Assembly (NCBI GenBank): GCA_013204445.1
Contig: JABMNS010000007.1
Coordinates: 1-40,286, forward strand
From: Sphingomonadales bacterium
GTDB lineage: Bacteria; Pseudomonadota; Alphaproteobacteria; Sphingomonadales; Sphingomonadaceae
Direction of reading: 5' to 3'
Length of the DNA: 40,286 bases
The number at the start of each line of letters is the position of its first letter. Within the stretch, counting starts at the first letter, position 1. A model generated the notes under the pieces. It was not told the origin of the DNA. It saw nothing but the letters and a program-made list of their open reading frames with translations, and made no database searches. This document shows, piece by piece, positions 1 to 14,722 of the stretch. Both the position numbers and the translations under genes were made by a program.

Positions 1-995
1 AAGATCACGTCGTCCATGCGGCTGCCGGTGTCAATCAGAGCGGTTGCAACGATGGTCAGCGAGCCACCCTCCTCGATGTTGCGGGCGGCGCCGAAGAAGC
101 GTTTGGGTTTCTGCAGGGCGGCCGCGTCCACGCCGCCTGAGAGGATCTTGCCACTGTGCGGCACCTCGGTGTTGTACGCGCGACCGAGACGGGTGATCGA
201 GTCGAGCAGGATGACCACGTCCGTGCCGAACTCGACCATGCGTCGCGCCTTCTCGATCACCATTTCAGCGACCTGGACATGACGGCTCGCCGGCTCGTCG
301 AACGTGCTGGAGATCACCTCCCCGCGCACGTTGCGCTCCATGTCGGTGACCTCTTCGGGACGCTCGTCGATCAGCAGCACCATCAGATAGACCTCAGGAT
401 GATTGTCGGTAATCGCCTTGGCAATATTTTGCAGCAGCACGGTTTTACCGGTCCGAGGCGGCGCCACAATCAAGGCCCGCTGGCCCTTGCCCTGCGGCGA
501 AATAATATCGATAACCCGGGCGGACTTGTCTTTTTCAGTCGGATCAAGACTGTCGAGCTTGAGCTTCTCATCCGGATAAAGCGGTGTCAAATTGTCAAAA
601 TTGACCCGGTGACGGACCGCATCGGGGTCATCGAAATTGATCGAGATCAGCTTGGTCAACGCAAAATAACGCTCGCCATCGCGTGGTGCCCGGATTTCGC
701 CTTCGACAGTATCGCCGGTGCGTAGACCGAATTTTCGAACCTGATTGGGAGAGACGTAAATATCATCGGGACCGGCAAGATAACTAGCATCGGCCGAGCG
801 TAGAAAACCAAATCCATCGGTCAACACTTCAATCGTGCCGAGGCCCATGATCTGTTCGTCATTGTCCGCTAGTTCCTTGAGGATGGCGAACATCAAATCC
901 TGTTTGCGCAGGGTGGAGGCACCCTCGACGCCTAGCTCTTCGGCCATCGAGACCAAATCAGCGGGCGATTTTTGTTTTAATTCTTTTAAATGCAT
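1..995 (-). CDS. rho: Transcription termination factor Rho (3' end outside window)
   Basis: Hexameric RNA-dependent ATPase that ends transcription on untranslated RNA. About 331 N-terminal codons are visible; the family is about 419 residues, so roughly the last 90 lie beyond position 1. The start [11 protein letters not shown] places the Walker A motif ([12 protein letters not shown]) with Lys184 and Thr185, the same numbering as E. coli Rho, which supports this ATG. The N-terminal helix bundle is followed by the RNA-binding OB fold (GFGFLRS near residue 60), then the ATPase core with Walker B ([16 protein letters not shown]). It lies downstream of hemE-hemJ on the same strand. The 146-bp gap at 996-1141 holds a small GC-rich inverted repeat but no convincing terminator, so rho may have its own promoter or be read through from hemE. 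Confidence 0.97.
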
Positions 996-1141
996 GGAGT
1001 TTTATCCAGATATTTCAGGAGGTTGTTTCTTAATTTCGTATGTGTGCAGCATATTGCTGTCAAATTTTCACATGAAATCTCGCCCGGACGGGCTTTGGCG
1101 GGTAATTACGCCTTTGTTATTTCACTGTCAACTAGGCCCGA

Positions 1142-1585
1142 TCAAAATGGTTTAACGATCACCAATATGACAATGATAGCAGCCGTGATTCCAGGAACTT
1201 CATTGACCAGTCGCAAAGCCTTATCAGTCATCGTTCGCTCTCCTCTGGCCAGCTTTTTCAGATAGGTAATCATCCAGCCATGGTAACCGGTCAGCAACAG
1301 CACCACGAGCAATTTTGCGTGGAACCAACCTTCGCTAAACGCGCCGATATTATAGGCCAGCAGCAGTCCCAAAACCCATGTGATGACCAGTGATGGATTG
1401 AGAATGATTTTACGGAGCTTGCCCTCGCGCTCGATCCATTTGCCATCCTCGTCTGAACCGACGGCGCATTCTTGATGATAGACAAAGAAACGCGGCATCA
1501 TAAACAGCCCCGCCATCCAGAAGATCACAAAGATGATATGGGCCGATTTTAACCAGAGATCGAGCATGGAAAGAATTTCATTCAT
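1142..1585 (-). CDS. hemJ: Protoporphyrinogen IX oxidase, HemJ family
   Basis: Small integral membrane enzyme of 147 residues that oxidises protoporphyrinogen IX to protoporphyrin IX, the penultimate step of heme synthesis in many alphaproteobacteria lacking HemG or HemY. Four hydrophobic helices are visible, at about residues 7-30, 60-82, 86-107 and 127-145. The family-typical stretch LKSAHIIFVIFWMAGLFMMPR near the N terminus carries the conserved His, and the YHGWMI region is also conserved. The ATG overlaps the hemE stop by the ATGA arrangement, so the two genes are translationally coupled and make consecutive late heme enzymes apart from ferrochelatase. Earlier annotations call the family UPF0093 or CopD-like. 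Confidence 0.93.
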   Translation of the reverse strand: MNEILSMLDLWLKSAHIIFVIFWMAGLFMMPRFFVYHQECAVGSDEDGKWIEREGKLRKIILNPSLVITWVLGLLLAYNIGAFSEGWFHAKLLVVLLLTGYHGWMITYLKKLARGERTMTDKALRLVNEVPGITAAIIVILVIVKPF

Positions 1586-2616
1586 TGCCTCACTAGTGTA
1601 AGCAGCTTTTCGACATGTTCAATAGGTGTGTCGGGCAAAATGCCGTGGCCGAGATTGAAAATATGCGGCCGGTCTTTAAAAACATCCAAAATATGACGCA
1701 CCGATGTTTCCAGCGCTTCGCCGCCAGAGATCAGCGCCAGCGGATCGAGATTGCCTTGCAGCGGAAGATCTGCTGGCAGATTTTCATGAGCCCAGACTGG
1801 ATCGACGGTTTCATCCAGACCAATCGCACTGGCTCCGGTTTCCCTAGCATAAGCGATCAATTTGGCGCCGGCACCCTTAGGAAATCCAATAATCGGAAGA
1901 TTCGGATGAACCGCCTTCAACCGTGATATGATTTTCGCATTGGGCGCAATTACCCATTTTTCAAATTGCTCAGGAGACAGGGATCCGGCCCAGCTATCGA
2001 ATAGCTGCACAGCATCAACACCCGCCTCGATCTGGCCGAGCAAATAAGTGACCGTATTTTGGACGATCGCATTGATCAATTCAGAAAAAGCCGCTTCATC
2101 CCGATAGGCTAACCGGCGCGTCGTCGCCTGGTCCTTACTACCCTGACCGTTGACCATGTACGTTGCGATTGTCCAAGGACTTCCTGCAAAGCCCATGAAT
2201 GTTGTTTTATCGTCAAGCTGTGCGGCGACGGAACGAACCGTCGCATATATGGCTTCAAAATGCTCAGGAGCACTCTCCAGAGACGCCAAAGACGCGTCCA
2301 GCAACCTAGGTGCTAGTCGAGGTCCTTCGCCCGCCTCAAACCAGAGTTTCTGGCCCATCGCATGCGGGACAATCAAAATGTCGGAAAACAGGATCGCGCC
2401 ATCAAAAGCAAAACGCTTAATCGGTTGCAAAGTGACTTCCGCCGCCGCCTCGGCATCATAACAAAGTTCCAAGAACCCGCCTTTTTGCGCGCGCAATTCC
2501 CGATATTCTGGCAAATAGCGGCCAGCCTGACGCATCAGCCAGACAGGCGTTTGTTCTGTCTTCTTGCCGAGCAGTGTTTGCAGTAAGATTTTCTGAGAAT
2601 CTATTTTGTTCGGCAT
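1582..2616 (-). CDS. hemE: Uroporphyrinogen decarboxylase
   Basis: Cytosolic enzyme of 344 residues that removes four acetate carboxyls from uroporphyrinogen III to give coproporphyrinogen III in heme synthesis. The signature (WLMRQAGRYLPEYRE, residues about 26-40) contains the substrate-binding Arg29. FSDILIVPHAMG follows around residue 80 and carries the catalytic Asp. Length matches the family. It is first in a hemE-hemJ unit (ATGA overlap), with rho beyond. Its upstream region is the probable replication origin, so its promoter, likely within the AT-rich block at 2634-2664, is embedded in origin DNA. In Caulobacter hemE also borders oriC, and transcription from this side is tied to origin control. 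Confidence 0.98.
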   Translation of the reverse strand: MPNKIDSQKILLQTLLGKKTEQTPVWLMRQAGRYLPEYRELRAQKGGFLELCYDAEAAAEVTLQPIKRFAFDGAILFSDILIVPHAMGQKLWFEAGEGPRLAPRLLDASLASLESAPEHFEAIYATVRSVAAQLDDKTTFMGFAGSPWTIATYMVNGQGSKDQATTRRLAYRDEAAFSELINAIVQNTVTYLLGQIEAGVDAVQLFDSWAGSLSPEQFEKWVIAPNAKIISRLKAVHPNLPIIGFPKGAGAKLIAYARETGASAIGLDETVDPVWAHENLPADLPLQGNLDPLALISGGEALETSVRHILDVFKDRPHIFNLGHGILPDTPIEHVEKLLTLVRQ

Positions 2617-2738
2617 CGAGAGACAGTGATCCCTTATATTATATATTTATAGATATTATAAATTGTTGTTGATGATAGAGCGTGGAAAACGCGGTAACCT
2701 CCCAGCACCGTAAATACAAACAGATTGACAGATGGAGG

Positions 2739-2753
2739 TTAAGGGAATTTTAA
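2739..2753. promoter_or_regulatory. CtrA-type binding site (TTAA-N7-TTAA)
   Basis: The sequence TTAA GGGAATT TTAA is an exact match to the alphaproteobacterial CtrA full site. It is also the centre of a dyad, with GGTTAA at 2737-2742 facing TTAACC at 2750-2755. It lies 24 bp before the first DnaA box. In Caulobacter CtrA represses initiation by binding such sites in oriC. Alternatively it could control hemE or ppsR transcription. Confidence 0.6.
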
Positions 2754-2776
2754 CCGATTCTGTAATTTACTTCCCG

Positions 2777-2872
2777 CTATCCACAGGCTGTGGATTGAAT
2801 CGATCAATGTTGGTGCGCTGTGGATGAATTTTCCGGTATCGGGGAAGAATATTGTAGGGCCACTTATCCACA
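2777..2872. promoter_or_regulatory. Cluster of DnaA boxes
   Basis: Four nonamers with the TCCACA core. CTATCCACA lies at 2777-2785 on the plus strand. Three bases on, its inverted partner at 2789-2797 reads CAATCCACA on the minus strand. At 2819-2827 the minus strand reads TCATCCACA. At 2864-2872 the plus strand carries the perfect consensus TTATCCACA. The inward-facing first pair, separated by 3 bp, is a likely nucleation point. DnaA binding is inferred from consensus only. Confidence 0.88.
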
Positions 2873-2918
2873 CTTTCATCCCTTGCTTTATCCCCTGTGA
2901 AATCACAAAGCTTAGTGC

Positions 2919-3764
2919 ATGAATCGGCTCCACCTCCATCTGCTCTCGGATTCAACCGGTGAGACCCTGGAAAACATAGCCAAAGCGGCGCTTGCCCAGT
3001 TTGACGGTGTCGAGATTATCAAGCACTTCTGGCCTATGGTCCGCTCGGAGAAGCATCTCAACCGGATCTTGACTGAAGTAGCGGATAATCCCGGCTTGGT
3101 CATATTCACCATCGTCAACCGTGATATCAGGGCGAAATTGGAACGTGAATGCAGACATTTGGGTCTGCCGTCGGTCCCGGCGCTAGATACTGTGACCGAT
3201 GCTTTGTCCAATATGCTCGGCCAAGAAGCCAAAGCCAGGCCAGGCCGCCAACATATTCTGGATGCGGCTTATTTTGCCAGGGTCGAAGCGATTCAATTCA
3301 CCATTGCCCATGATGACGGGATCGGATGGGAAAATTGGGAAGAGGCTGATATTGTGCTTGCCGGCGTGTCGCGAACCTCGAAAACACCAACGTCCATTTA
3401 TCTGGCCAATCGTGGATACAAGACCGCGAATATTCCGATCGTCCCGGAATCGCCGCCACCAGATTCGCTCTACCACCTTAAAAACCCGCTGGTGGTTGGC
3501 CTGATCACCGGTGCCTCGAGGCTGGTGCAGGTCAGGCGTAACCGATTGCTATCATTGAACCAGGCCCCGGAAACAGACTATGTTAATGAGGAGAAGGTCA
3601 AGGCCGAGACCCAATATGCCCACCGGATGTTCGCGGATAACGGCTGGCCAATGATCGATGTGACACGGCGCTCTATCGAGGAATCGGCAGCGGCAATAAT
3701 CAATCTCTATAACGAGCGCCACGTCCGCTTGGGCGATGTTCAGCAGGATAGTGGTGATGAGTGA
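2919..3764 (+). CDS. ppsR: Pyruvate,phosphate dikinase / PEP synthase regulatory protein (DUF299)
   Basis: Bifunctional kinase/pyrophosphorylase of 281 residues that inactivates PEP synthase or pyruvate phosphate dikinase by ADP-dependent Thr phosphorylation and reactivates it by phosphate-dependent removal. The family begins with the LHLLSDSTGETLE motif, seen at residues 5-18, and carries the P-loop-like ADP site GVSRTSKTPTS at 149-159. Both are intact and the length is normal. The target enzyme is not in the window, so PpsR versus PpdK-regulator naming cannot be settled here. It is the first gene to the right of oriC, and its promoter must lie within the origin region. Its stop overlaps the maf start by 8 bp. 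Confidence 0.93.
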   Translation: MNRLHLHLLSDSTGETLENIAKAALAQFDGVEIIKHFWPMVRSEKHLNRILTEVADNPGLVIFTIVNRDIRAKLERECRHLGLPSVPALDTVTDALSNMLGQEAKARPGRQHILDAAYFARVEAIQFTIAHDDGIGWENWEEADIVLAGVSRTSKTPTSIYLANRGYKTANIPIVPESPPPDSLYHLKNPLVVGLITGASRLVQVRRNRLLSLNQAPETDYVNEEKVKAETQYAHRMFADNGWPMIDVTRRSIEESAAAIINLYNERHVRLGDVQQDSGDE

Positions 3765-4362
3765 AGCGCGCCTGATACTGGCCTCAAAAAGTAAGGCGCG
3801 GCTTGCAATGCTGATAGCCGCCGGTGTTGTCGTTGAGGCTATTGCGCCCAATGTCGACGAAGAATCCCTTAAAGATGGGTTGAAGAGCGAGGGTGTGACC
3901 GCTCGCAATCTTGCTGATGCGTTGGCAGAGGCCAAGGCGGTTCGGCTTTCAGGGCGGATCGGAACCGGAATGATATTGGGTGCCGACCAGGTGCTGGCGC
4001 TCGAAGATGGCATGATGCTCGACAAGCCGTCCGATTCGGTCGATGCTATTGCGCAACTGAAATTGCTGTCGGGTAAGAAGCACAAGCTGTTCAGTGCGGC
4101 GGTTATTGCCGAACAAGGAATTCCAGTGTGGCGGCATATCGATATTGCAACACTTTCGGTGCGGGTGCTGAGCGATTCCTTCATCGAACAATATGTTGAA
4201 TCGGAATGGGACAATATCCGTCATTGCGTCGGTTGTTACGAAATTGAGGGCCACGGCGCTCAGCTATTCTCTGCCATAGCGGGCTGTCAGTTCACGATCA
4301 TGGGCCTGCCGCTTTTGCATTTGCTAGACTATCTTCGCATCCGGGGTATTTTACCATCATGA
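3757..4362 (+). CDS. maf: Maf-family nucleoside triphosphate pyrophosphatase
   Basis: Cytosolic house-cleaning pyrophosphatase of 201 residues that hydrolyses non-canonical or methylated nucleotides to monophosphates. The N-terminal Maf signature appears as LILASKSKARLAML, a mild variant of the usual LASxSPRR form. The catalytic-base region ILGADQVLAL and the KxHxLFSA segment (KHKLFSAAV) follow. An in-frame ATG lies 21 bp upstream at 3736, but MSEARLILAS at 3757 fits the family start and is preferred. It overlaps ppsR by 8 bp and aroE by an ATGA junction, in a tight run ppsR-maf-aroE-coaE. The exact substrate class (dTTP/UTP or m7GTP type) is not clear from the sequence. Confidence 0.92.
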   Translation: MSEARLILASKSKARLAMLIAAGVVVEAIAPNVDEESLKDGLKSEGVTARNLADALAEAKAVRLSGRIGTGMILGADQVLALEDGMMLDKPSDSVDAIAQLKLLSGKKHKLFSAAVIAEQGIPVWRHIDIATLSVRVLSDSFIEQYVESEWDNIRHCVGCYEIEGHGAQLFSAIAGCQFTIMGLPLLHLLDYLRIRGILPS

Positions 4363-5177
4363 CCACAGACATTCCTTATGCCGAGGTTATCGGTGATCCA
4401 ATAGCCCACAGCAAATCTCCGCTGATTCACAAATTCTGGCTCGAACGGCTGGCTATCAAGGCGGATTACCGCTCCTGCCATGTCACGCCTGCCGAATTGC
4501 GCGACTATGTTGAGCGGCGGCGCGCGGATCCGGCCTGGCGGGGCTGCAATGTTACGATACCGCATAAAATAGCCATGCTCGATCTGGTCGCCGATCCCGG
4601 CGGTGTGCGCGAGAAGATTGGAGCCATGAACACTATCGTCCGGCAACCCGATGGCAGCATGATCGGTACAAATACCGATGCCGCCGGTTTTCTGGCGCCT
4701 ATTGCCGACACCGATTGGTCGGGAAAACATGCCGTGGTTGTTGGGGCAGGGGGTGCGGCGCGGGCCGTATTATTCGCTCTGAAACAGGCTGGGATTGGCG
4801 AAATAACTATCGTCGCGCGCAGCGGATTGAAAGCAACGGGATTGCTCATGCAAGCGGCGATCAAGGGCGGCGTATTGCCGATGGACGCGCAATTGCCAAA
4901 GGCAGATCTATTGATTAACGCGAGCCCACTTGGGATGACGGGCAAGCCGCCGCTTGAGGTGAATCTCGATCCCTTGCCGGCCGATGCACTGGTTTATGAT
5001 CTGGTCTATGCGCCGCTGAAGACGGGTCTTTTGCGGGCTGCTAAACAGCGGAATTTGGCGGTGGTCGATGGTCTCGACATGTTGATTGGGCAGGCGGCGC
5101 TGGCTTTCGAGCTGTTCTTTGGCGCGACGCCGCCGATGGAAGATGATGCCGAGCTAAGAAAATTGTTGATCGCCTGA
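4359..5177 (+). CDS. aroE: Shikimate dehydrogenase (NADP+)
   Basis: Reduces 3-dehydroshikimate to shikimate with NADPH, step four of aromatic amino acid synthesis. The shikimate-binding loop GDPIAHSKSP (residues 12-21), the catalytic Lys70 in NVTIPHK and the NTDAAGF motif are present. VVGAGGAARA then forms the Rossmann dinucleotide-binding loop. The 272 residues match the family. The ATG overlaps the maf stop (ATGA) and the stop overlaps the coaE start by one base (TGATG), so the gene sits in a translationally coupled operon. Confidence 0.97.
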   Translation: MTTDIPYAEVIGDPIAHSKSPLIHKFWLERLAIKADYRSCHVTPAELRDYVERRRADPAWRGCNVTIPHKIAMLDLVADPGGVREKIGAMNTIVRQPDGSMIGTNTDAAGFLAPIADTDWSGKHAVVVGAGGAARAVLFALKQAGIGEITIVARSGLKATGLLMQAAIKGGVLPMDAQLPKADLLINASPLGMTGKPPLEVNLDPLPADALVYDLVYAPLKTGLLRAAKQRNLAVVDGLDMLIGQAALAFELFFGATPPMEDDAELRKLLIA

Positions 5178-5782
5178 TGGAACGGGATAGGCCCTACATC
5201 GTCGGTCTGACGGGTTCCATCGGCATGGGAAAATCCACGGTAGGAAAATTGTTCGTCGATGAAGGCGTTCCGCTATTCGATGCCGATGCCGCGGTCCATG
5301 AATTGCAGGGACCGGGCGGCGCTCTGGTTGATGCGATTGAAGCGTTGTTTCCGGGAAGTACGAACAGCGACGGGGTAGACAGGCAGAAGCTGGGGGCCGC
5401 GGTGCTCGGCGATCCGGCTGCCTTGAAACAGCTGGAAAAGCTGATTCACCCGGCGGTGGCAGAAATGCGGCAGTCATTTCTCGAAAAACATCGAGACCAG
5501 CCTTTAATCCTGTTCGACATTCCGCTGCTTTTTGAAAAAGGTGGTGCGGAGAGCGTCGACTATATCATTGTAGTATCCGCTGGTGCGGAAGACCAACGGG
5601 CCCGGGTTCTCGCCCGTCCCGGCATGAGTGATGAGCGGTTCGAACAGATAAAGGCGATACAAATGCCGGATGTGGAAAAGCGGCATAAGGCCGATTCAGT
5701 GATCGATACATCTCTGCCATTGCTGGAAACGCGTCAGCAGGTGCAGAAACTTGTTCAAAAACTGAGAGCATCCCTTGCGTAA
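5177..5782 (+). CDS. coaE: Dephospho-CoA kinase
   Basis: Phosphorylates the 3'-OH of dephospho-CoA in the last step of coenzyme A synthesis. A P-loop (GLTGSIGMGKST, residues 10-21) opens the protein, followed by the DADAAVHEL substrate motif and IPLLFEKGG around residue 115. The 201-residue length is typical. Its start overlaps the aroE stop by one base. The order aroE-coaE-dnaQ near oriC is the same as in Caulobacter. Confidence 0.97.
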   Translation: MERDRPYIVGLTGSIGMGKSTVGKLFVDEGVPLFDADAAVHELQGPGGALVDAIEALFPGSTNSDGVDRQKLGAAVLGDPAALKQLEKLIHPAVAEMRQSFLEKHRDQPLILFDIPLLFEKGGAESVDYIIVVSAGAEDQRARVLARPGMSDERFEQIKAIQMPDVEKRHKADSVIDTSLPLLETRQQVQKLVQKLRASLA

Positions 5783-5809
5783 CCCAATGATCAGTCCGAT
5801 AGTATGCTT

Positions 5810-6508
5810 ATGCGGGAAATAATTTTCGACACCGAAACCACCGGCTTTGATCCCCAAAATGGTGACCGAATGGTAGAAATCGGCTGTATTGAAATGATCG
5901 ACCGGATCGAAACCGGCCAGACCTTTCATTGCTATTATAATCCCGAACGGTCGATGCCAAATGCCGCCGAGAATGTGCATGGGCTCTCTGACATGTTTTT
6001 GTCTGACAAAAAGCTTTTCGCGACCGGTGCGGAAGAGCTGCTTGATTTTCTGGGAGACGCGAATCTTGTCGCCCACAATGCCCAGTTTGATTTCAAATTT
6101 CTCAATGCCGAATTGTTATTATGCGGCTACAAACCGATTTCCCAATTCCGTATGATCGACACACTGGCAATAGCCAAATCCAAACATCCTGGCGCAAAAT
6201 TGTCGCTTGATGCATTATGCTCGCGCTATGGTATCGATCGCAGCCATCGGGTGAAACATGGTGCGCTGCTCGATGCGGAGTTGCTAACCCAACTCTATAT
6301 CGAGTTAACGGGTGGACGCCAGATCGGTCTAGGCTTGGCAGAAAACACGAAGCGGCACGAATCTATTGCTAGCATGCAACCAACATTACAGCAGGTAGAA
6401 CGCAAACAATTCATGGCGCCGCGGGAGCATCATGCGGATGCCGATGAACTGGTTAGGCACAAGATTTTTATCGAGGGTATTGAAAACCCTCTCTGGACAG
6501 AGGTCTAA
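5810..6508 (+). CDS. dnaQ: DNA polymerase III subunit epsilon (3'-5' proofreading exonuclease)
   Basis: Proofreading subunit of the replicative polymerase. The three exonuclease motifs are intact: Exo I (IIFDTETTG, with Asp7 and Glu9), Exo II (HNAQFDFKFL) and Exo III (HGALLDAELL, the HxAxxD form). A C-terminal tail after about residue 175 should carry the link to the alpha subunit. The start MREIIFDTETTG at 5810 is preferred over an ATG two codons upstream at 5804. The gene follows coaE after a 27-bp gap. From the start chosen the protein is 232 residues, normal for alphaproteobacteria. Confidence 0.96.
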   Translation: MREIIFDTETTGFDPQNGDRMVEIGCIEMIDRIETGQTFHCYYNPERSMPNAAENVHGLSDMFLSDKKLFATGAEELLDFLGDANLVAHNAQFDFKFLNAELLLCGYKPISQFRMIDTLAIAKSKHPGAKLSLDALCSRYGIDRSHRVKHGALLDAELLTQLYIELTGGRQIGLGLAENTKRHESIASMQPTLQQVERKQFMAPREHHADADELVRHKIFIEGIENPLWTEV

Positions 6509-6514
6509 CTGTAC

Positions 6515-6533
6515 TGCCGTTTGCGTAACGGCA
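6515..6533 (+). other. Hairpin between dnaQ and hpf
   Basis: TGCCGTT (6515-6521) and AACGGCA (6527-6533) form a perfect 7-bp stem around a 5-base loop. No T run follows, so it is not a standard intrinsic terminator. It sits only 10 bp before the hpf Shine-Dalgarno sequence and could be an mRNA-stabilising or leader element. Confidence 0.5.
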
Positions 6534-6555
6534 CAGAATTAAAAGGAGAATGATT

Positions 6556-7128
6556 ATGGAAGTTCGTGTTTCGGGACATCAGGTCGATACTGGCGATGCG
6601 TTGCAAGCCCATGCTGAGGATCGGATGAAGGCGATCGCCAGCAAATATTTTGCCAAGGCCATTTCAGGAAATGTCACCTTGAGCAATGCGCCGCACGCCC
6701 ATTTCAAATGCGATATTGTTACTCATGTCATGCAGGGCCTTATGCTGAAAGCCGACGCTGTAGCGGGCGATGCTCATCAGGCTTTCGAGCAGGCCGCCGA
6801 CAAGATTGAAAAACAGCTGCGCCGCTACATGCGACGGCTGAATGATCATCATGTGCAGGCACAACACGCGGCGAAACAGGAAGAAGCGGCCTATCGCGTG
6901 TTTGAATCGTTCGAAGATGAAGAAGAAAGCGAACTGAATGGAGAATCTCCTCCAATCATTGCCGAAACCAGCACCGATATTCCAGAAGCCAGCGTGTCCA
7001 ATGCCGTGATGATGATGGATCTGCGCAATACCAGCGCGCTTTTGTTCAAAAACTCTGGCACTGGCGCCCATAATATGGTTTATCGCCGCTCCGATGGCAC
7101 AATTGGTTGGGTAGAGCCACATAGCTGA
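6556..7128 (+). CDS. hpf: Ribosome hibernation-promoting factor, long form
   Basis: Binds the 30S subunit and, in the long form, drives ribosome dimerisation into inactive 100S particles in stationary phase. The N-terminal S30AE domain (residues 1 to about 100) is followed by an acidic linker and a C-terminal dimerisation domain ending in VYRRSDGTIGWVEP. The 190-residue length marks the long type. Of two close ATGs, 6556 is chosen because AGGAG at 6544-6548 sits 7 bases upstream of it but too near the one at 6550. It precedes ptsN, a pairing also seen in other proteobacteria downstream of rpoN, but no rpoN is present in this stretch. Confidence 0.95.
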   Translation: MEVRVSGHQVDTGDALQAHAEDRMKAIASKYFAKAISGNVTLSNAPHAHFKCDIVTHVMQGLMLKADAVAGDAHQAFEQAADKIEKQLRRYMRRLNDHHVQAQHAAKQEEAAYRVFESFEDEEESELNGESPPIIAETSTDIPEASVSNAVMMMDLRNTSALLFKNSGTGAHNMVYRRSDGTIGWVEPHS

Positions 7129-7256
7129 TAGGGCCGAATCGCTTTAAACAGTCGGATAACCGGTTGTTATGCCGGCTGGCCCAACGCAAACCGACGTCCA
7201 AACTCTGGCATAGTTATGGAAGTGGCTGAGTTTTGCTGGGACAAAAGGAAAGATTC

Positions 7257-7724
7257 ATGACTGATTTGCCCGTAAGAATGGAACTCGCTGCCGTTCGGGA
7301 TAGTGCGGACGTCGGCGATAAGGACGATATTTTACGGACGATCGCTCGCATAGGGCACGAATGCTATCGACTGGACGCCGATGCGATTCTGGTAGGTTTA
7401 ACGGCCCGAGAAGCCCTTGGATCAACCGGTTTCGGGCGGAGGATTGCCATACCGCATGCAAAGTTGGCCAGCCTCGATCATTGTGTCGGTATTTTTCTGC
7501 GTCTTGCCGAACCAGCTTCGTTTGATGCACACGATGGCAAACCGGTCGATCTGATCTTTGCCCTGCTGTCCCCGCAAAAAGGTGGCGTTGAGCATTTGAA
7601 GGCCTTGGCCGCCGTTTCCCGCTTCTTGCGGGATGACCATATGGTTTCGAAGCTGCGGGGCGCATCTGGCCAGGATGCGCTTTATGCGCTGTTGAACAGG
7701 CAGCGCGAGCCACAGGCCGCCTGA
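7257..7724 (+). CDS. ptsN: Nitrogen-regulatory PTS enzyme IIA (EIIA-Ntr)
   Basis: Phosphorelay regulator of the nitrogen PTS that links phosphorylation state to potassium, carbon and nitrogen control. The 155-residue protein is one PTS EIIA type-2 domain with the phosphorylated His67 in GRRIAIPHAKL. ATG 7257 is preferred over an upstream in-frame start at 7233 because AAAGGAA lies just before it and the domain starts soon after. A 128-bp gap separates it from hpf. No other PTS component is seen here. Confidence 0.94.
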   Translation: MTDLPVRMELAAVRDSADVGDKDDILRTIARIGHECYRLDADAILVGLTAREALGSTGFGRRIAIPHAKLASLDHCVGIFLRLAEPASFDAHDGKPVDLIFALLSPQKGGVEHLKALAAVSRFLRDDHMVSKLRGASGQDALYALLNRQREPQAA

Positions 7725-7733
7725 TCCTTGGCC

Positions 7734-8213
7734 ATGATAGATGAACCGATAGATGATGCGCAGAGCGGCGGCGCGCAGGAGCATTTCCGGGCCCTGGAAC
7801 GACTCTATGCGGAAGCTCCGATAAACCGGCTGTTCAATTCCCGTCTCGAGATCGCGGAAGCCGGCATGGCGCGTATATTTTTTACTGTCGATGACCGATA
7901 TTATCACGCGGCCGGGGCGGTGCACGGCACGGCCTATTTTAAGATGCTCGACGATGCTGCCTTTTACGCTGCCAATAGTCTAGTTTCCGACCGGTTCATC
8001 TTGACGACCGCCTTCAATCTGCTCTTTACCAAGCCGCTCAAGTCCGGTCAGGTCACTGCCGAAGGTCGGTGGGTTAGTGGTAAACGACGGGTTTTTGTAG
8101 CGGATTCGCGGCTGATCGATAGCGATGGCGACGAAATAGCGCGCGGTACCGGTACTTTCATGCGTTCGCATATCCCGCTGGCATCCTTGCCTGGGTATAA
8201 AAAGGATGATTGA
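7734..8213 (+). CDS. PaaI-type hotdog-fold thioesterase
   Basis: Predicted acyl-CoA thioesterase of about 159 residues with one hotdog domain. The central helix region (AAGAVHGTAYFKMLDDAAFYAAN) has the family-typical HG followed by a DDAA segment, and the later strand region SGKRRVFVADSRLID fits the fold. The substrate is unknown. ATG 7734 is chosen; a TTG two codons earlier is also possible. The start follows ptsN by 9 bases, and the end overlaps the broken DUF1491 gene by 8 bp, so these probably form one transcript. Confidence 0.82.
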   Translation: MIDEPIDDAQSGGAQEHFRALERLYAEAPINRLFNSRLEIAEAGMARIFFTVDDRYYHAAGAVHGTAYFKMLDDAAFYAANSLVSDRFILTTAFNLLFTKPLKSGQVTAEGRWVSGKRRVFVADSRLIDSDGDEIARGTGTFMRSHIPLASLPGYKKDD

Positions 8214-8544
8214 ACCTCGGCTTTCTGCGGAAACGAAGGTCCAGACCCTTCTCAGACTGGTGAGCCAGAATGGTGGCTTCGGAGCTGTTCTGAAAAAAGG
8301 TGACCGGATATCTGGAGCGATCCTTATCCAATGTGTAGAAAAGGGCGAAAAACCTATGCTTCTAGAGAATATGCCGTCGCTGGATGGCCAGCCCAATTGG
8401 TAGAAAATATGGCCCCAAGATACTGATAACAATAAAGAATTGTCAGAATATGTCACCCAAAGATTCTGTTTTGACCCCGATATGTGGTTAATTGAACTGG
8501 ATATCCCGGATGCGGAACGGCTCATCGCCCAAATGGGTCAGTAA
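8206..8544 (+). pseudogene. DUF1491 family protein interrupted by an in-frame TAG
   Basis: The first 65 codons (MIEPRLSAETKVQTLLRL through LDGQPNW) read as the start of a DUF1491 protein of unknown function. A TAG at 8401-8403 stops the frame. The same frame then runs 46 more codons to TAA at 8542-8544, and this part carries the family-like C terminus (FDPDMWLIELDIPDAERLI). There is no frameshift: one base change separates it from a complete 112-residue protein, the normal family length. It overlaps the thioesterase end by 8 bp. Possible explanations are a nonsense mutation, a sequencing error or amber readthrough. The DUF1491 assignment rests on recalled family pattern. Confidence 0.8.
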
Positions 8545-8695
8545 ACTTGACTTTATTCCCCAGAACCATAATTGGCGCTCAACTTTGATGCGCAGGTTGC
8601 CGCTGGGGTGTCAGGAATGACAGGCGGTAAACACGCAGACGGGGAGAACAGGGATAGACCTTCGGTTTGATTTTTTGGTCTATTTTTGGCGGTTT

Positions 8696-8709
8696 TGACA
8701 AGAATGTCA
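8696..8709. promoter_or_regulatory. Short inverted repeat upstream of the cell-wall hydrolase
   Basis: TGACA-AGAA-TGTCA is a perfect dyad 39 bp before the hydrolase start, inside the 203-bp gap 8545-8747. A TTGACA hexamer at 8695-8700 overlaps it, but no matching -10 box sits at normal spacing. It could be an operator; no known factor is assigned. Confidence 0.35.
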
Positions 8710-8747
8710 TAATTTGCTCTGGTCTCACCGCATAATGTTATAGGTTT

Positions 8748-9455
8748 ATGAGCAAAATTTTTCGTCTAACAAGCGCCTTGTCGCTTGCCCTTACTACGGT
8801 CGCGGCTTTGTCCGTCACCGATGTGTCCTTCGCGTTGGAAGCAAGCGATGAGACACCTGAAACAGAGATTTTTATCGATCCGGCTCTGCTAGAAGATGAC
8901 CAGTCCAATCAAGCCATTATTTTTGGTGATCAACAGGAAGTTGTCGCTGAAATTCCCCGGGATGTTGTGCAATCAGACAAGATTGCCAATGGCGAGGCCG
9001 ATCAGAATTTTGACGAAATTTCCGGTTTCATCGATGATGGCGCACTGTCCTTGCGGCAGCTGGTCCGCCAACAATCGGTAGACGGTTCGCTCGATGCTGA
9101 AATGCAATGTCTTGCCGGGACCGTCTATTTTGAATCCAAGGGTGAATCGCTGCAGGGTCAGCTTGCTGTGGCCCGCGTTGTTCTGGCGCGCGTCGAATCC
9201 TCTCGATTTCCGGACAGCATCTGCGGCGTGGTTTTCCAGCGCAGCCAGTTTTCCTTTATTCGCGGTGGCAAAATGCCTCCGATCAAAACCGGGAACCGGC
9301 ATTGGCGCAATGCAGTGGCGATTGCCAAAATAGCGATGAACGATGGCTGGGAAAGCTCGGTGGAAGGCGCGCTATTCTTTCATGCACGCTATGTCTCTCC
9401 GGGCTGGAGCCTAAAGCGCCTGGCAACGATAGACAATCATATTTTCTATCAGTAG
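8748..9455 (+). CDS. Secreted cell-wall hydrolase, SleB family
   Basis: Predicted periplasmic peptidoglycan hydrolase of 235 residues. It starts with a signal peptide (about residues 1-29, cleaved after DVSFA). An acidic, low-complexity spacer follows to about residue 110, then a SleB/hydrolase_2 domain. CLAGTVYFES (121-130) contains the probable catalytic Glu129, and RSQFSFIRGG and EGALFFHARYVSPGW are conserved blocks of the domain. In alphaproteobacteria these enzymes act in cell-wall remodelling rather than spore germination. It is a single gene ended by a strong terminator. Confidence 0.88.
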   Translation: MSKIFRLTSALSLALTTVAALSVTDVSFALEASDETPETEIFIDPALLEDDQSNQAIIFGDQQEVVAEIPRDVVQSDKIANGEADQNFDEISGFIDDGALSLRQLVRQQSVDGSLDAEMQCLAGTVYFESKGESLQGQLAVARVVLARVESSRFPDSICGVVFQRSQFSFIRGGKMPPIKTGNRHWRNAVAIAKIAMNDGWESSVEGALFFHARYVSPGWSLKRLATIDNHIFYQ

Positions 9456-9481
9456 GCCGCTGGAAAATACCGAATTTATAG

Positions 9482-9517
9482 AGGCTCCCTCGTGGGGGCC
9501 TTTATTTTGTTCTTTTT
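9482..9517 (+). terminator. Rho-independent terminator after the cell-wall hydrolase
   Basis: Stem AGGCTCCC (9482-9489) pairs with GGGGGCCT (9494-9501) around a TCGT loop, with one G-T wobble, followed by a T-rich run TTTATTTTGTTCTTTTT. The stem can be extended by three more pairs at its base. The T run overlaps the LexA box of the next gene. Confidence 0.88.
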
Positions 9518-9523
9518 ATGTTC
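9509..9523 (+). promoter_or_regulatory. LexA/SOS box (GTTC-N7-GTTC) upstream of mmcB
   Basis: GTTC TTTTTAT GTTC matches exactly the alphaproteobacterial direct-repeat SOS operator GTTCN7GTTC. It ends 21 bp before the preferred mmcB ATG (9545). mmcB is a LexA-controlled gene in Caulobacter, so site and gene agree. Binding is inferred. Confidence 0.85.
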
Positions 9524-9544
9524 TAGCCATGTTTGATGATGATA

Positions 9545-10051
9545 ATGAATGATTTGCTTGGCTTGTTAACGACTCCGGCTGAGTTGACCGGCGCGCAGGC
9601 AGTCGCCCGCGGCGTGGCCAGAATGTTTCTGCGCCATGATATCATGGTGTTGTCCGAAGTCAGTTTGCGGAACAGGCGCCGAGCGGATCTGATGGGGATT
9701 GATGCCAAGGGGCAAATTGTCATTGTCGAGATCAAGGTGGCGCGGAGCGATTTGCTGGGCGACGCCAAATGGACCGAATATCTGGATTATTGTGACCGCT
9801 TCTACTGGGCCTTGCCGATCGGATTTGATGCCTCGCCGGTCGATGGACCAGATTTCCTGCCTGAACGCACCGGGGTGATCATTGCCGATGCCTATGATGC
9901 GGAAATGGTACGCTCGGCTGCGACCAATGCGCTTGCGCCAGCGCGGCGCAAGACAGAGACCATGCGGCTAGCCCGCCGTGCCATGCAGCGCGTCGCGATC
10001 TCTGATGGCTGGATCAGTCCCGCCTCCGGCCTGCACGAGCCCGGCGGTTAA
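9545..10051 (+). CDS. mmcB: MmcB-family DNA repair protein (restriction-endonuclease-like fold)
   Basis: Predicted DNA-repair nuclease of about 168 residues, named in Caulobacter for SOS-induced tolerance of mitomycin C damage. A PD-(D/E)xK core is visible: RRRADLMGID supplies the Asp and IVIVEIKVARSDLLGD supplies the ExK pair. WTEYLDYCDRFYWALP follows, as in the family. Several starts are close together (TTG 9533, ATG 9536, 9539, 9545); MNDLLGLL at 9545 is preferred. A perfect LexA box directly upstream supports both the name and its induction by DNA damage. No imuA, imuB or dnaE2 is nearby. Confidence 0.88.
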   Translation: MNDLLGLLTTPAELTGAQAVARGVARMFLRHDIMVLSEVSLRNRRRADLMGIDAKGQIVIVEIKVARSDLLGDAKWTEYLDYCDRFYWALPIGFDASPVDGPDFLPERTGVIIADAYDAEMVRSAATNALAPARRKTETMRLARRAMQRVAISDGWISPASGLHEPGG

Positions 10052-10061
10052 CAATCGACGA

Positions 10062-10715
10062 CTATCCTTCCGGTCCAAAGAACCGCCCTTCGGGTTTCGG
10101 TTTTTTGTCGGAGTCCGCTTTTTCAATTTCTGACAATATGGGGGCAGCTCGGCGATCTTCCTGTGCGTAATCGCGTGCTGACTTACCTGCGAGCGTGTCG
10201 GCCCGGTCTGGGTCGGCGCCGTTTGCAAGAAGCAGGCGGACCAGTTCGGTATCACGGATGTGGACCGAAAGAATGAGTGCGGTCTCGCCTTGTTTATTCG
10301 TATCATCCACCTTCGCTTGTTTCGCCAAAAGGGTTCTGACGCCATCGACAAACCGAAGCTGGGCCGCGAGCATGAGCGGCGTAACACCCTCTTTGTCCGA
10401 GAGATTGGGATTGGCACCTTTTTGCAGCAGGAAACCCAGCCAGGTATTATCGCGCCGTTCTACCACAATATGTAAGGCAGTCTCGCCAGTGGTGTAGTCA
10501 CGTGTATTGACGATTACGGTTCCTGGCTCGCTGAGAAACTTTGTTGCTTCTTCCCCATCGCGGTCCTTGACTGCTTTCAGAAAATTATAGCTGTCCGAAA
10601 ATTGAGCAGCGGCAGGAGCTGAAAAAGAAATCGCCACGGCAGCAAGCCATGCAAGCCGCAGGAAAATGAGGAACTGGCCGGACGAGTGTGCGACGGAAGG
10701 ATTTCTCTTGAACAT
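10062..10715 (-). CDS. Exported ankyrin-repeat protein
   Basis: A 217-residue protein with a probable signal peptide (hydrophobic stretch at about 17-35, cleaved near SAPAAAQ) and about four ankyrin repeats between residues 40 and 185. Typical repeat blocks are TTGETALHIVVERRD, EGVTPLMLAAQLRFVDGVRTL and QGETALILSVHIRDTELVRLLL. The last 30 residues are charged (DSDKKPKPEGRFFGPEG). Ankyrin repeats bind protein partners; the partner is unknown. It converges with mmcB, with 10 bp between the stops, and diverges from sco1 over a gap of about 110 bp that must hold both promoters. Confidence 0.85.
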   Translation of the reverse strand: MFKRNPSVAHSSGQFLIFLRLAWLAAVAISFSAPAAAQFSDSYNFLKAVKDRDGEEATKFLSEPGTVIVNTRDYTTGETALHIVVERRDNTWLGFLLQKGANPNLSDKEGVTPLMLAAQLRFVDGVRTLLAKQAKVDDTNKQGETALILSVHIRDTELVRLLLANGADPDRADTLAGKSARDYAQEDRRAAPILSEIEKADSDKKPKPEGRFFGPEG

Positions 10716-10825
10716 TTTTAGCCCCGTTATATTGACCCGTGTCTATTGGCACCGATCTACTGCAATTGCTGCCTATCAATTATCTGTTGAAATTGATCAA
10801 CTAGCAGACCATGTCTGGCACCGTA

Positions 10826-11437
10826 ATGAACAATATCACAAATGTCGCAAAAATGATCCTCGCTACAGGGTTACTGACACTCATGGCTGCCTGTAACGCT
10901 GGGTCTGACGGCGGCGCGGCAGAGGAGCCGTCGCTTGCTGGGGCGAATATCGGCGGCACTTTTACGCTGACGAACCAGGATGGAGGGAAAACCTCGGAAC
11001 AACAATTCAAGGGCCAATATCGCATCATCTATTTTGGCTACAGCTATTGCCCTGACGTTTGCCCCGTTGATCTTGCCAATATCATGCTGGGATTGAAGCA
11101 AGCGGAAAAAGCCAACCCGGCGCTGATACAGAAAATTCAGCCAATTTTCATATCGGTCGATCCAGGGCGCGATACACCCGCCGTGTTGAAACAATATGTT
11201 TCCGCCTTTCACCCGCGCCTTATTGGACTTACCGGAAGCGCGGAGGAAATTGCCGCAGTCGCGGAAAAATATCTGATTATCTATGATATCCGGAAAGACG
11301 AAGGATCGAGCGAATATCTCGTCGATCATAGCCGGCAGGCCTATTTGTTCGGACCAGAGGGAGAGCCGCTGGCGCTGCTGCCTTATGATGGCACGGCGCA
11401 AGATGTCGCTGACGAAATTACCCGATGGGTGCGCTAG
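10826..11437 (+). CDS. SCO1/SenC family lipoprotein (copper chaperone for cytochrome oxidase)
   Basis: Membrane-anchored thioredoxin-fold protein that delivers copper to the CuA site of cytochrome c oxidase. From ATG 10826 the N terminus is a lipoprotein signal with lipobox LMAAC (Cys23). The copper-binding residues are intact: Cys75 and Cys79 in CPDVCP, and His168 in VDHS. The ISVDPGRDTP block is characteristic. An upstream in-frame ATG at 10811 would add five residues. The end overlaps the ycgN-like gene, so the three genes sco1-ycgN-ygjP are coupled. Oxidase genes are not in the window. Confidence 0.93.
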   Translation: MNNITNVAKMILATGLLTLMAACNAGSDGGAAEEPSLAGANIGGTFTLTNQDGGKTSEQQFKGQYRIIYFGYSYCPDVCPVDLANIMLGLKQAEKANPALIQKIQPIFISVDPGRDTPAVLKQYVSAFHPRLIGLTGSAEEIAAVAEKYLIIYDIRKDEGSSEYLVDHSRQAYLFGPEGEPLALLPYDGTAQDVADEITRWVR

Positions 11438-11871
11438 GCTCCGATCAGCCGTTCTGGGAAGGGCCACTCGAATCGCTGGATCGCGGCCAGTGGGAAGCCT
11501 TGTGCGATGGCTGTGGTAAATGCTGTTTGCTCAAAGCCGAAGATGAGGATGACGGTCAGATATATATGACCAATATCGCCTGCAAATTGCTCGATCTCCA
11601 GGACGCGCGGTGTAGCGACTATCGCCACCGGAAATTTCATGTTCCCGATTGCGTCCGGCTGACTCGCAACAAGCTCGAGGAATTTGAATGGCTGCCAGAT
11701 AGCTGCGCCTATAAACTGCGCGCCCGCAACCTGCCGTTACCGGCATGGCATTATCTGGTCTCCGGCGACCGTGAAACGATCCATGCAGCTGGCCAGTCGA
11801 TTCGTGGCAAGGTAATACCGGAAAGCAAAGCAGGACCGCTTGAACAGCATATTCTCGATGCGCCTCTTTAG
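11425..11871 (+). CDS. YcgN-family cysteine-cluster protein (UPF0260)
   Basis: A 148-residue conserved protein of unknown biochemical role. The N-terminal cluster CDGCGKCC (Cys27, 30, 33 and 34) and later cysteines (AC, RC, DC and SC contexts) form the family pattern, which resembles a metal or iron-sulfur site. WxxLCDGCGKCCLLK and the C-terminal block LPAWHYLVSGD are diagnostic. It overlaps sco1 by 13 bp and the following metallohydrolase gene, so the three are probably made together. Confidence 0.9.
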   Translation: MGALGSDQPFWEGPLESLDRGQWEALCDGCGKCCLLKAEDEDDGQIYMTNIACKLLDLQDARCSDYRHRKFHVPDCVRLTRNKLEEFEWLPDSCAYKLRARNLPLPAWHYLVSGDRETIHAAGQSIRGKVIPESKAGPLEQHILDAPL

Positions 11872-12604
11872 CTCGACGCGTTCTGAAGCGCTCGCTATCA
11901 GCCTCGACGGGGTCAGCTATCCGCTCCATTTGCGACGATCCAAGCAGGCTCGGTCGATCATTGTATCGGCGGATACGGTCAAGGGCGTCGTCCGTCTGAC
12001 GGTGCCCACTTACGCGTCGGAACATCAGGCGCTGCGCTTTGCCCAGTCAAAATCCGATTGGCTCAACGCCCGCTTTGCCGAAGCCGTGCCTCCCGTTACG
12101 TTAGAGGATGGCAGCCAGATAGCCTTTTTGGGGGAGCCGTGTATCATAAGATGGTCGCCAGAATTTGCGCGTGCACCGCTGCTGGTGGAAGACGAAATCC
12201 TGCTGGGCGGCCCCGCTGAACATGTTGAGTCCCGCATCCTTCGCTGGCTCAAGGTCCAGGCTCGAACGATTTTTGCCGATGATCTGCAATTTTATTGCAC
12301 GAGAGCCGGAACAGATTTTCCGCGACTGGCGGTCGGCGATGCGCGACGACGCTGGGGCAGCTGTTCCGGTCGCCAGTCGATCAGATTGAGTTGGCGGCTG
12401 GTCATGGCACCACCCCATGTCCGCCGGTCGGTGGTGGCGCATGAAGTCGCCCATCTTACGCATATGGATCATAGTCGGCGATTTTATGCTTTGCTAGACC
12501 AGATATACGAATCGGATCGCCGGGCAGCTGATCGCTGGCTCAAGGATCATGGCCGTGGCCTGCATATGGTGGGAGCGGAACGGCAATCCCAACTGGTTGA
12601 CTGA
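11858..12604 (+). CDS. YgjP-like zinc metallohydrolase (M48-related, DUF45)
   Basis: Predicted cytosolic zinc-dependent hydrolase of about 248 residues. The N-terminal half is a beta-rich domain of the DUF45 type. The C-terminal half contains RRRWGSCS and the zinc motif HEVAHLTHMDHS (His195, Glu196, His199), with the typical downstream His-Ser pair. The substrate is not known. ATG 11858 (MRLFSST) is preferred over 11840; it overlaps the ycgN end. An uninterrupted run from sco1 suggests one operon. The 3' end converges with the class A PBP gene, with only 9 bp between them. Confidence 0.88.
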   Translation: MRLFSSTRSEALAISLDGVSYPLHLRRSKQARSIIVSADTVKGVVRLTVPTYASEHQALRFAQSKSDWLNARFAEAVPPVTLEDGSQIAFLGEPCIIRWSPEFARAPLLVEDEILLGGPAEHVESRILRWLKVQARTIFADDLQFYCTRAGTDFPRLAVGDARRRWGSCSGRQSIRLSWRLVMAPPHVRRSVVAHEVAHLTHMDHSRRFYALLDQIYESDRRAADRWLKDHGRGLHMVGAERQSQLVD

Positions 12605-12613
12605 ACCGGAGTG

Positions 12614-14722
12614 CTATTGCGGTTCTATACGGACCGCTTCGGGAAGCAAGGATTCTGGCTGGTTTTGGGGAGGTTGCGGTTTGGGTTTTTTGGCAGGTTC
12701 CGGTTTGCGGGGAGCAGGGTCTTCGCCGCGACCCAGGACCGAATCGATCCAATCCTGGTCGAGACGCGGGCCATCGGCGGCTTCGCCGCCTTCGAGATCA
12801 TATTCGACCCCACGACCTGTTTCGATCGGCATACCATTTTCGTCCACGTAAATACCGTCTTCCGGCGCTCCGAACAGTTCATCTGCATCGGGTTCCAATT
12901 GCCATTCTGGCAAGACCAGCTCGGTATCGAATTTCTCCACCTTTCGATTGGCCACGGCCACTTTCATGAACTGCGCGAAGGCCGCAGCCGGAGCCCGGCC
13001 TCCCTGCAATCCGCCAACCGGCTTCGCATCATCACGGCCCATCCAGACACCCGTCGTCAGCCCGCTGGAAAAGCCGAGAAACCAGCCATCCTTGTTGCTG
13101 CTCGTTGTCCCGGTCTTGCCCGCAACCGGCCTACCAATTTGTGCTGCCCGCCCGGTGCCGGTGGCTACGGCGGTCTGCATCAGGTCTGTGATCCCAGCAG
13201 CGACCCAGGGGTCCACGAGCACACGGCTGCCGTCAAATTTGCTCTGATAAAGAATATCACCCTTCATAGTTTGCACCTTGGTGATCCCGAATGGGGTGAT
13301 CGCGATGCCCTTGGCGCTGATCGATGCAAAGGCGCGGGTCATGTCGAGCAGCCGCACATCGGAGGTGCCCAGCACCATAGAGGGGTTGGAATTGATCTGG
13401 GTGGTTATACCGAAACGGCGCGCCATATTGGCAATGGACGAAGTGCCGATATCATTGCCGATCGCCGCCGCGACGGTATTTTTGGAAAAGGCGAACGCCG
13501 TGCGGACGTCAATGTCGCCGGCATAGCGATCGCCGCTGTTGCGGGGCGTCCAGTTGCCAATGGTAATCGGCTCATCGGTCACTGTATCATCAGGCGTATA
13601 GCCGGCTTCCAGCGCCGCCATATAAACAAAGACTTTCCAGGCCGACCCGGGTTGACGGACCGCCTGCGTTGCGCGGTTATAGTTGGACGTCACATAATCC
13701 GTTCCGCCGACCATCGCGCGGACCGCACCATCGCGGTCAATCGCCACCAGCGCGCCTTGTGCACCAGCCGGAACCTGAGACTGGATAGCCGCCGTAGCTG
13801 AGCGTTGCATGTCGAGATCTAAGGTTGTCCAGACTTCAAGCGGTTCCACGCTCTCATCGATCAGCATATCCAGTTGCGGCAGAGCCCAGTCGGTAAAATA
13901 GCGCACACTATTCTGTCGTGGTTCGGGAGCGAGCTTGACCGAAGATGGTGAGGCCTCCGCCGCTTCTGCTGCGGTGATCGCGCCAGCATCCTGCATCACC
14001 TCGAGAACCACGCCGGCCCGTCCGATCGCTGCCTTGGCATCGGCTGTGGGCGAATAGCGGGAAGGGGCCTTCACCAGTCCGGCGATGATCGCTGCCTCGG
14101 CCAGGTTGAGCTCTCTGGCGCTGTGCGCGAAGAACCGGCGAGATGCGGCGTCAATGCCATAGGCACCACCGCCATAATAAACCTTGTTCAGGTACAGCTC
14201 GAGGATCTGCTCTTTGGAAAATTTTCGTTCCATCGCCAGCGCGAGCAATATCTCTCGTCCTTTCCTGCCAAATGTCCGGTTATTGTTCAGAAACACGTTC
14301 CGGGCCAGCTGCTGGGTGATGGTCGATCCGCCCTGGGCCCAGTTGCCGCGCTGCACCCTTACCTGGAGCGAACGGGCGATGCCGATCGGGTCAACGCCCG
14401 GATGACTCTCGTAGCGCCGGTCTTCGACAGCGACCATTGCGGATTTCATCACGTCCGGGATATCTGCATATTGCAGCCACTCGCCGTAGCTCGGCCCCAT
14501 GGAAAACAGCTCCTTGCCGTTCACATCCAGCACCCGGATCATCTGGCCATTGGGAGAAGATTTCAGATCCTCGAAGCCGGGGAGAGAGGAGCGGACAACC
14601 AAGATGGCAACCACCAACGCAATCGCGGCGAGAAACCCGACCACTAGGCCGGCCTTGATCAGCCGCCAGAGCCATTTGCGCACTGGTCCCTGCTGTTTGC
14701 TGCGCTTTTTGCCCCGTGCCAT
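12614..14722 (-). CDS. Bifunctional class A penicillin-binding protein (PBP1A-like)
   Basis: Inner-membrane peptidoglycan synthase of 702 residues. A basic cytoplasmic tail precedes one transmembrane helix (about 22-45). The GT51 glycosyltransferase domain follows, with catalytic Glu100 in EDRRYESHPG and the GGSTITQQLARN motif. The transpeptidase domain has Ser360-xx-Lys363 (GSAWK), SKN (413-415) and KTG (536-538). The last 100 residues are acidic, then rich in Pro and Lys. All active-site motifs are intact. Whether it is PBP1a, PBP1b or a PbpC variant is not certain from motifs; the short linker suggests a PBP1A-type enzyme without an ODD domain. The next gene upstream on the same strand is msrB, 86 bp away. 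Confidence 0.93.
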   Translation of the reverse strand: MARGKKRSKQQGPVRKWLWRLIKAGLVVGFLAAIALVVAILVVRSSLPGFEDLKSSPNGQMIRVLDVNGKELFSMGPSYGEWLQYADIPDVMKSAMVAVEDRRYESHPGVDPIGIARSLQVRVQRGNWAQGGSTITQQLARNVFLNNNRTFGRKGREILLALAMERKFSKEQILELYLNKVYYGGGAYGIDAASRRFFAHSARELNLAEAAIIAGLVKAPSRYSPTADAKAAIGRAGVVLEVMQDAGAITAAEAAEASPSSVKLAPEPRQNSVRYFTDWALPQLDMLIDESVEPLEVWTTLDLDMQRSATAAIQSQVPAGAQGALVAIDRDGAVRAMVGGTDYVTSNYNRATQAVRQPGSAWKVFVYMAALEAGYTPDDTVTDEPITIGNWTPRNSGDRYAGDIDVRTAFAFSKNTVAAAIGNDIGTSSIANMARRFGITTQINSNPSMVLGTSDVRLLDMTRAFASISAKGIAITPFGITKVQTMKGDILYQSKFDGSRVLVDPWVAAGITDLMQTAVATGTGRAAQIGRPVAGKTGTTSSNKDGWFLGFSSGLTTGVWMGRDDAKPVGGLQGGRAPAAAFAQFMKVAVANRKVEKFDTELVLPEWQLEPDADELFGAPEDGIYVDENGMPIETGRGVEYDLEGGEAADGPRLDQDWIDSVLGRGEDPAPRKPEPAKKPKPQPPQNQPESLLPEAVRIEPQ

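Follow-up and report, generated by a model that had tools for sequence, protein, structure and literature searches.

The stretch of DNA analysed here (the window, 40,286 nucleotides of a single contig) raises the question of whether the intergenic gap between its divergent hemE and ppsR genes is the chromosomal origin of replication, and whether a TTAA-N7-TTAA motif within that gap places initiation under the control of the regulator CtrA. The original prediction had proposed a probable oriC at this position, together with a full CtrA site. We find that the first of these proposals is borne out: the gap is very probably (at roughly 0.94) a chromosomal oriC of the hemE/COG1806 alphaproteobacterial type, a call that is strongly supported by synteny, DnaA boxes, an A+T-rich block, the GC-skew switch of a close relative and published predictions for the family. 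The source assembly comprises 2,526,754 bases (2.53 Mb) in 401 contigs and is 82.86% complete, and the call provides a reliable origin for this incomplete genome and for its genus, which we infer to be Parasphingorhabdus-like. The second proposal stands in part, and the CtrA-type origin site was encountered in this sequence survey mainly in the bacterium's own genus. The features on which both answers depend are collected in Table 1.

Table 1. Observed and predicted features of the hemE-ppsR gap and its boundary genes (positions within the window).
Feature	Position	Strand	Remarks
hemE, uroporphyrinogen decarboxylase, left boundary	1582-2616	-	Pfam PF01208, E 3.2e-115
Intergenic gap between divergent hemE and ppsR, candidate oriC	2617-2918		302 bp
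A+T-rich block, candidate duplex unwinding element	2634-2664		97% A+T, maximum of the gap among 31-bp stretches
Conserved TTGTTGTTGATGATAG, three-base-periodic, adjoins A+T block	2663-2678	+	Alignment
Weak DnaA-like box TTTTCCACG (GTGGAAAA), adjoins periodic block	2681-2689	-	2 mismatches, read directly
TACAAACAGATTGACA, weakly IHF-like	2715-2730		Identical in the 22 nearest aligned origins; IHF likeness on the minus strand
CtrA-type TTAA-N7-TTAA	2739-2753		Starts 8 bp after the 2715-2730 element
GATTC, a GANTC (CcrM-type) site	2756-2760		Identical in 22 aligned origins
DnaA box CTATCCACA	2777-2785	+	1 mismatch to TTATCCACA
DnaA-like box CAATCCACA	2789-2797	-	2 mismatches, read directly; inverted pair with 2777-2785
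GAATC, second GANTC site	2797-2801		
DnaA box TCATCCACA	2819-2827	-	1 mismatch to TTATCCACA
Perfect DnaA box TTATCCACA	2864-2872	+	0 mismatches
TTCATCCCTTGCTTTATCCCC, nearly invariant, with box-like halves TTCATCCCT and TTTATCCCC	2875-2895	+	Candidate weak DnaA boxes
ppsR, kinase/pyrophosphorylase, right boundary	2919-3764	+	Pfam PF03618, E 1e-92

The right boundary gene, the PF03618 member ppsR, we take to be the COG1806/DUF299 gene of the Caulobacter origin. A search for ppsR relatives gave 346 encoding stretches, and retaining the best 80 of them yielded 81 gaps with the window included; hemE lies divergently beside ppsR in all of these best 80 loci, and the gap between the two measures 288-476 bp in 79 of them and 958 bp in one. 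Across the order, ppsR was matched in 136 of 147 genomes, from which 59 were picked by hand, mostly one per genus (28 gaps from the bacterium's own family and 31 from other families), and hemE adjoins ppsR in 59/59 of these genomes chosen among ppsR-positive ones. At least one DnaA box with no more than one mismatch was present in 81/81 near gaps and in 58/59 order gaps. The order set and the first set of 81 partly overlap, and the genus set described below largely repeats loci L002-L022, so that counts from different sets are not to be summed; one locus (L196), a duplicate of L141, was left out. The oriC of Caulobacter and that of Rickettsia are likewise located between hemE and COG1806 in the available text of PMC1914354. 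Similarly, the DoriC predictions summarized in the accessible part of PMC4741004 place oriC near hemE in most Sphingomonadaceae, with conserved DnaA boxes in Sphingopyxis origins; to these earlier hemE-side predictions the present gap adds another case.

Two observations concern the limits of this gene order. A ppsR match was absent from 11 of the 147 order genomes, synteny being assessable in the other 136, and in one genus of the same family all five sampled genomes (G110, G119, G128, G136 and G157, each at least 99% complete) gave no match, the right boundary gene there being lost, replaced or too diverged. Furthermore, one locus (L071) lies on a contig titled as a Brevundimonas MAG, yet its ppsR (77% identical) and its origin resemble those of sphingomonads, and the contig title is probably a binning or naming error.

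Within the gap, the four DnaA-like boxes that had been predicted at 2777-2872 are all present, three of them with at most one mismatch (one being perfect) and the fourth with two. Three boxes of the former quality were matched by only 1/5000 dinucleotide shuffles of the gap, a cluster beyond chance, while the six such boxes found across the whole window are not unusual (39/100 shuffles reach six); it is the clustering in the gap, not the window-wide count, that stands out. The perfect box has 12 copies in the assembly, on 12 different contigs, and the inverted pair TATCCACA-(0-20)-TGTGGAT occurs a single time in the 2.53-Mb assembly, at this gap. The A+T-rich block was also recovered where it had been placed, at 2634-2664: no other 31-bp stretch of the gap has a higher A+T content, and the composition of the block is that of a predicted unwinding element. 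It may be added that the nearly invariant TTCATCCCTTGCTTTATCCCC of the genus, situated just upstream of ppsR, resembles two degenerate tandem DnaA boxes. Searches of the window against Rfam (gathering thresholds) and for tRNA genes returned no matches. The genes parAB usually lie near the origin, as stated in the accessible portion of PMC8116508; a Pfam scan of 32 window proteins (of 41 frames of at least 120 aa) found neither ParA nor ParB, and on the hemE side the window reaches no further than 2.6 kb.

A further expectation of the original prediction was that GC skew should switch sign at the origin, and such a switch was found near the orthologous gap of Sphingorhabdus sp. 109 (L005), whose ppsR is 95% identical. 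Forty 10-kb samples taken along the 3.56-Mb contig of this relative gave a mean skew of +0.028 to the right of the gap (n = 20) and -0.016 to its left (n = 20; Mann-Whitney p 1e-4), with negative values in 16/20 samples on the left and positive values in 18/20 on the right; the sample 17 kb to the right has near-zero skew. The gap itself is at 2.598 Mb; the origin came out at 2.64-2.67 Mb in a free two-switch fit (terminus near 1.02-1.08 Mb) and at 2.70 Mb in a fit constrained to equal halves. These displacements of 42-100 kb could be taken to mean that the gap is merely a divergent promoter regulated by DnaA, which is known to regulate promoters too (PMC4468827, in the text available), and that the origin lies elsewhere. 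The offset is, however, about the size of the sampling step (up to 90 kb), to which precision the switch falls at the gap, and synteny, skew and published predictions concur, such that we regard an origin elsewhere as highly improbable. For the bacterium's own genome the skew was read across one contig of the 401, where it is negative at bases 1-3000, positive at 3001-13000 and afterwards fluctuates around zero; because of this later hovering around zero, the local change of sign is weak evidence when taken alone.

Accepting the gap as oriC, we examined what lies between its A+T-rich and DnaA-box sides. The 16-bp element TACAAACAGATTGACA is better conserved than the DnaA boxes, and ACAAACAGATTGACA was found in 28/29 genus origins. 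Its core, ACANN(A/T)TGAC, occurs in 81/81 near gaps, in 10/28 own-family order gaps and in 0/31 order gaps of other families, as compared with a chance expectation of about 0.7% per gap. Read by eye against the IHF consensus, the element has two mismatches on the minus strand; when 13 gaps were scanned with that consensus at no more than one mismatch, the window gave no match, and matches at the conserved element were seen in L029, L038, L042, L055, L058 and L080. A DnaA-trio reading was also considered for 2663-2689. Trios require a middle adenine and three or more consecutive trinucleotides adjoining a DnaA box (PMC8287927); at most two consecutive ones were found by eye, in that stretch only, and the reading was not convincing. 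GANTC sites are present in all 28 own-family and all 81 near gaps and are absent from 9/31 other-family origin gaps (L165, L167, L170, L175, L182 and L190-L193), in which lineages CcrM may be absent.

The TTAA-N7-TTAA motif proposed as a CtrA site is present and exact, and is the sole exact one in the window; when one mismatch is allowed, the number of CtrA-type sites in the window as a whole is not unusual. A scan of the gap for further CtrA sites found none with one mismatch besides it, leaving a single site rather than an array, which is separated by 23 bp from the nearest DnaA box and is therefore near it without overlap. The TTAA pair alone is only mildly surprising, since 82/5000 shuffles of the gap hold an exact one. 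At the scale of the assembly, seven exact motifs were counted as compared with 1.2 expected from the TTAA density of the window, a null that was used in place of a reversed-pattern control, rejected because TTAA is rare anyway. In addition to the origin, these seven lie 111 bp upstream of ctrA, just upstream of a POTRA-domain frame, just behind a TerC-like frame, between dehydrogenase and aldolase frames, inside a cytosine-methylase frame and in one further frame. The origin and the ctrA promoter are textbook CtrA targets, and the presence of both among the seven sites therefore favours function.

Several smaller observations accompany these counts. Other exact sites also recur in relatives, among the matches listed. 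The TTAA pattern with a following C gave 3-25 strand hits per genome in 16 related genomes, and such sites are thus not equally rare in all relatives. Sites of the form TTAATTTTACATTAAT in four relatives were considered as ctrA-promoter sites and rejected, as they are not beside ctrA.

How far the site is kept was assessed in 32 genomes of the genus, in 29 of which the gap was matched and in three of which it was not. The exact site is present in 8 of these 29 origins and a version with one mismatch in 16, 13 of them reading TTAA-N7-TTTA, for a total of 24/29 at no more than one mismatch; the five failures comprise three origins that differ at two positions, one whose spacer is six bases long and one in which the site is destroyed. 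Wherever the site is kept, it begins at exactly the same distance past the 2715-2730 element as it does here. Among the nearest 22 origins, the 8 exact sites compare with 0.23 expected, although shared ancestry means that the 8 are not independent; the remaining 59 of the first 81 gaps hold 0 (0.27 expected) and the order gaps 1/59 (1.56 expected), with no excess outside the genus. What had been called a full CtrA site is exact here and constrained within the genus, though its exact form is missing from 21/29 genus origins. The loss of site and boxes in close relatives, which had been named as an argument against the proposal, was half observed: the site is lost in 5/29 origins and carries one mismatch in 16/29, and the DnaA boxes are kept.

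Such a distribution would also be expected if the oriC assignment is right and the TTAA pair belongs to some other conserved element, GTTAA-N7-TTWACC, which happens to match the CtrA consensus in some species. The low share of exact sites (8/29) and the lack of excess elsewhere in the order agree with this explanation, as does column 2752, the third letter of the second TTAA, which shows four changes on the tree and often decides whether the consensus is matched. Three results speak against it. The first is the excess in the nearest 22 origins, subject to their shared ancestry, and the second is the set of seven exact sites in the assembly with two at oriC and the ctrA promoter. The third comes from the regions upstream of ctrA, obtained for 30 of the 32 genus loci: all 30 carry a site at -108 to -112, which is exact in 15 of them and has a single mismatch in the other 15, on which basis one mismatch seems normal for CtrA sites of this genus. 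An element unrelated to CtrA is a serious possibility, at somewhat under even odds.

Parsimony on a tree of the flanking genes from 22 genomes bears on the same issue. The eight TTAA columns changed 1.5 times on average, as compared with 3.37 in neighbouring unannotated columns, and less often than third codon positions (4.4-5.1 changes; P 2.5e-4). However, the whole gap averages 1.87 changes (TTAA columns against random gap columns, P 0.35), and the site is therefore not better conserved than the rest of the origin; columns 2662-2675, for example, show 0.71 changes per column. An offset test in the nearest 11 origins similarly found 21% of offsets to be equally or more conserved. Column conservation was accordingly set aside as proof of CtrA binding, as it fails against the other columns of the gap, and was retained only in the comparisons with neighbouring columns and third codon positions.

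The upstream regions of ctrA (L234-L263) also carry at least three GANTC sites further upstream in 29/30 cases, the remaining locus offering only 123 bp. As judged from these sequences, ctrA autoregulation and its control by methylation look conserved in the genus.

The genome encodes a CtrA-family regulator, a 242-aa frame that scores over the curated cut-off of its family; in 14 control genomes the same family gave weaker response-regulator matches in 12 and a match over the cut-off in one. The ChpT family is also encoded, and among the 14 controls only Caulobacter matches it. In Sphingomonas melonis, CtrA is described in the available text of PMC8116508 as dispensable, yet with an influence on replication. 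From these components and general knowledge of oriC, a possible mechanism can be outlined. DnaA would load on the boxes at 2777-2872 and melt the A+T-rich block at 2634-2664, perhaps by way of the weak box and the three-base-periodic block at 2663-2689. The single CtrA-type operator would separate the unwinding side from the DnaA boxes and lie near the 2715-2730 element and a GANTC site, an arrangement that is plausible at the level of the genus. Bound there, CtrA could keep the DnaA complex from growing toward the unwinding block, or alternatively could block a bend at the invariant, weakly IHF-like element. That phosphorylated CtrA at 2739-2753 would in this way hinder the spreading of DnaA or bending, and so delay initiation, we consider close to an even chance, and an additional effect on transcription would be compatible with it.

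A real CtrA site might instead serve transcription of ppsR or hemE and have no part in replication. It does lie within a divergent promoter region, and Caulobacter CtrA also acts on transcription at the origin (PMC4468827, in the text available). Against this, the region 2560-2960 contains two sigma-70-like promoter matches (1.2 expected), and neither of them, for that promoter type, covers the site; a role confined to transcription appears unlikely. For replication itself, one might tentatively picture a brake formed by one CtrA site in one genus, similar to the site of the ctrA promoter and gained separately from the Caulobacter sites, an evolutionary scenario that may well prove wrong.

Comparison with known systems places this arrangement among several related ones. 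The predicted oriC of Sphingopyxis granuli TFA and other Sphingomonadaceae likewise lies beside hemE in a conserved gene order and has multiple DnaA boxes together with a putative DNA-unwinding element, and its description in the accessible part of PMC4741004 mentions no CtrA site, unlike the present gap; among the first 81 gaps, no exact CtrA-type site was found outside the nearest 22 either, and the Sphingopyxis loci of our survey belong to those outside. Among the open-licence papers listed, we came across none that describes a CtrA site in the origin of a member of the Sphingomonadales. The origin of Caulobacter crescentus, Cori, shares with the gap its hemE and COG1806 boundaries, DnaA boxes, an A+T block and TTAA-N7-TTAA, and differs in having five CtrA sites, some near or over two moderate G-boxes, in addition to weak W-boxes (PMC4468827 and PMC1914354, as far as their available text goes), whereas the present gap has a perfect DnaA box and a single CtrA-type site, lying 23 bp from the closest box. 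Caulobacter CtrA is believed to keep DnaA off the origin, and eliminating its sites produced only mild effects in cultures grown in the laboratory; CtrA at origins is described for freshwater Caulobacter and, probably through independent evolution, for marine Caulobacter (PMC4468827, available portion). In Hyphomonas neptunium, a member of the Caulobacterales, CtrA occupies the ctrA promoter as well as the origin or its immediate neighbourhood, which parallels the pattern of sites seen here; that occupancy was determined by ChIP-seq, while the present genome is known from sequence alone (PMC7200025, accessible text). Predicted origins of the Rickettsiales, as given in the available part of PMC1914354, likewise have a hemE side and few CtrA-type sites, predicted in silico, and differ in another boundary gene in Wolbachia, Ehrlichia and Anaplasma and in being mostly more A+T-rich.

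If CtrA does bind the site, the genus provides strains in culture that already vary by one or a few of its bases against similar oriC backgrounds: it is exact in P. flavimaris (L010), has one mismatch in P. marina (L020) and is lost in others. Under that condition, such natural variants would allow a direct test of how, and for what reason, alphaproteobacteria gain and lose CtrA control of replication. A different configuration was seen in another genus of the same family, represented by one genome (G069), whose origin gap (L145) contains three TTAA at 11-bp steps that form two overlapping exact CtrA-type sites. The triple occurred in 0/5000 shuffles of that gap, where a single pair has a chance of 0.03, and judging by these motifs the overlapping sites may represent a second gain.
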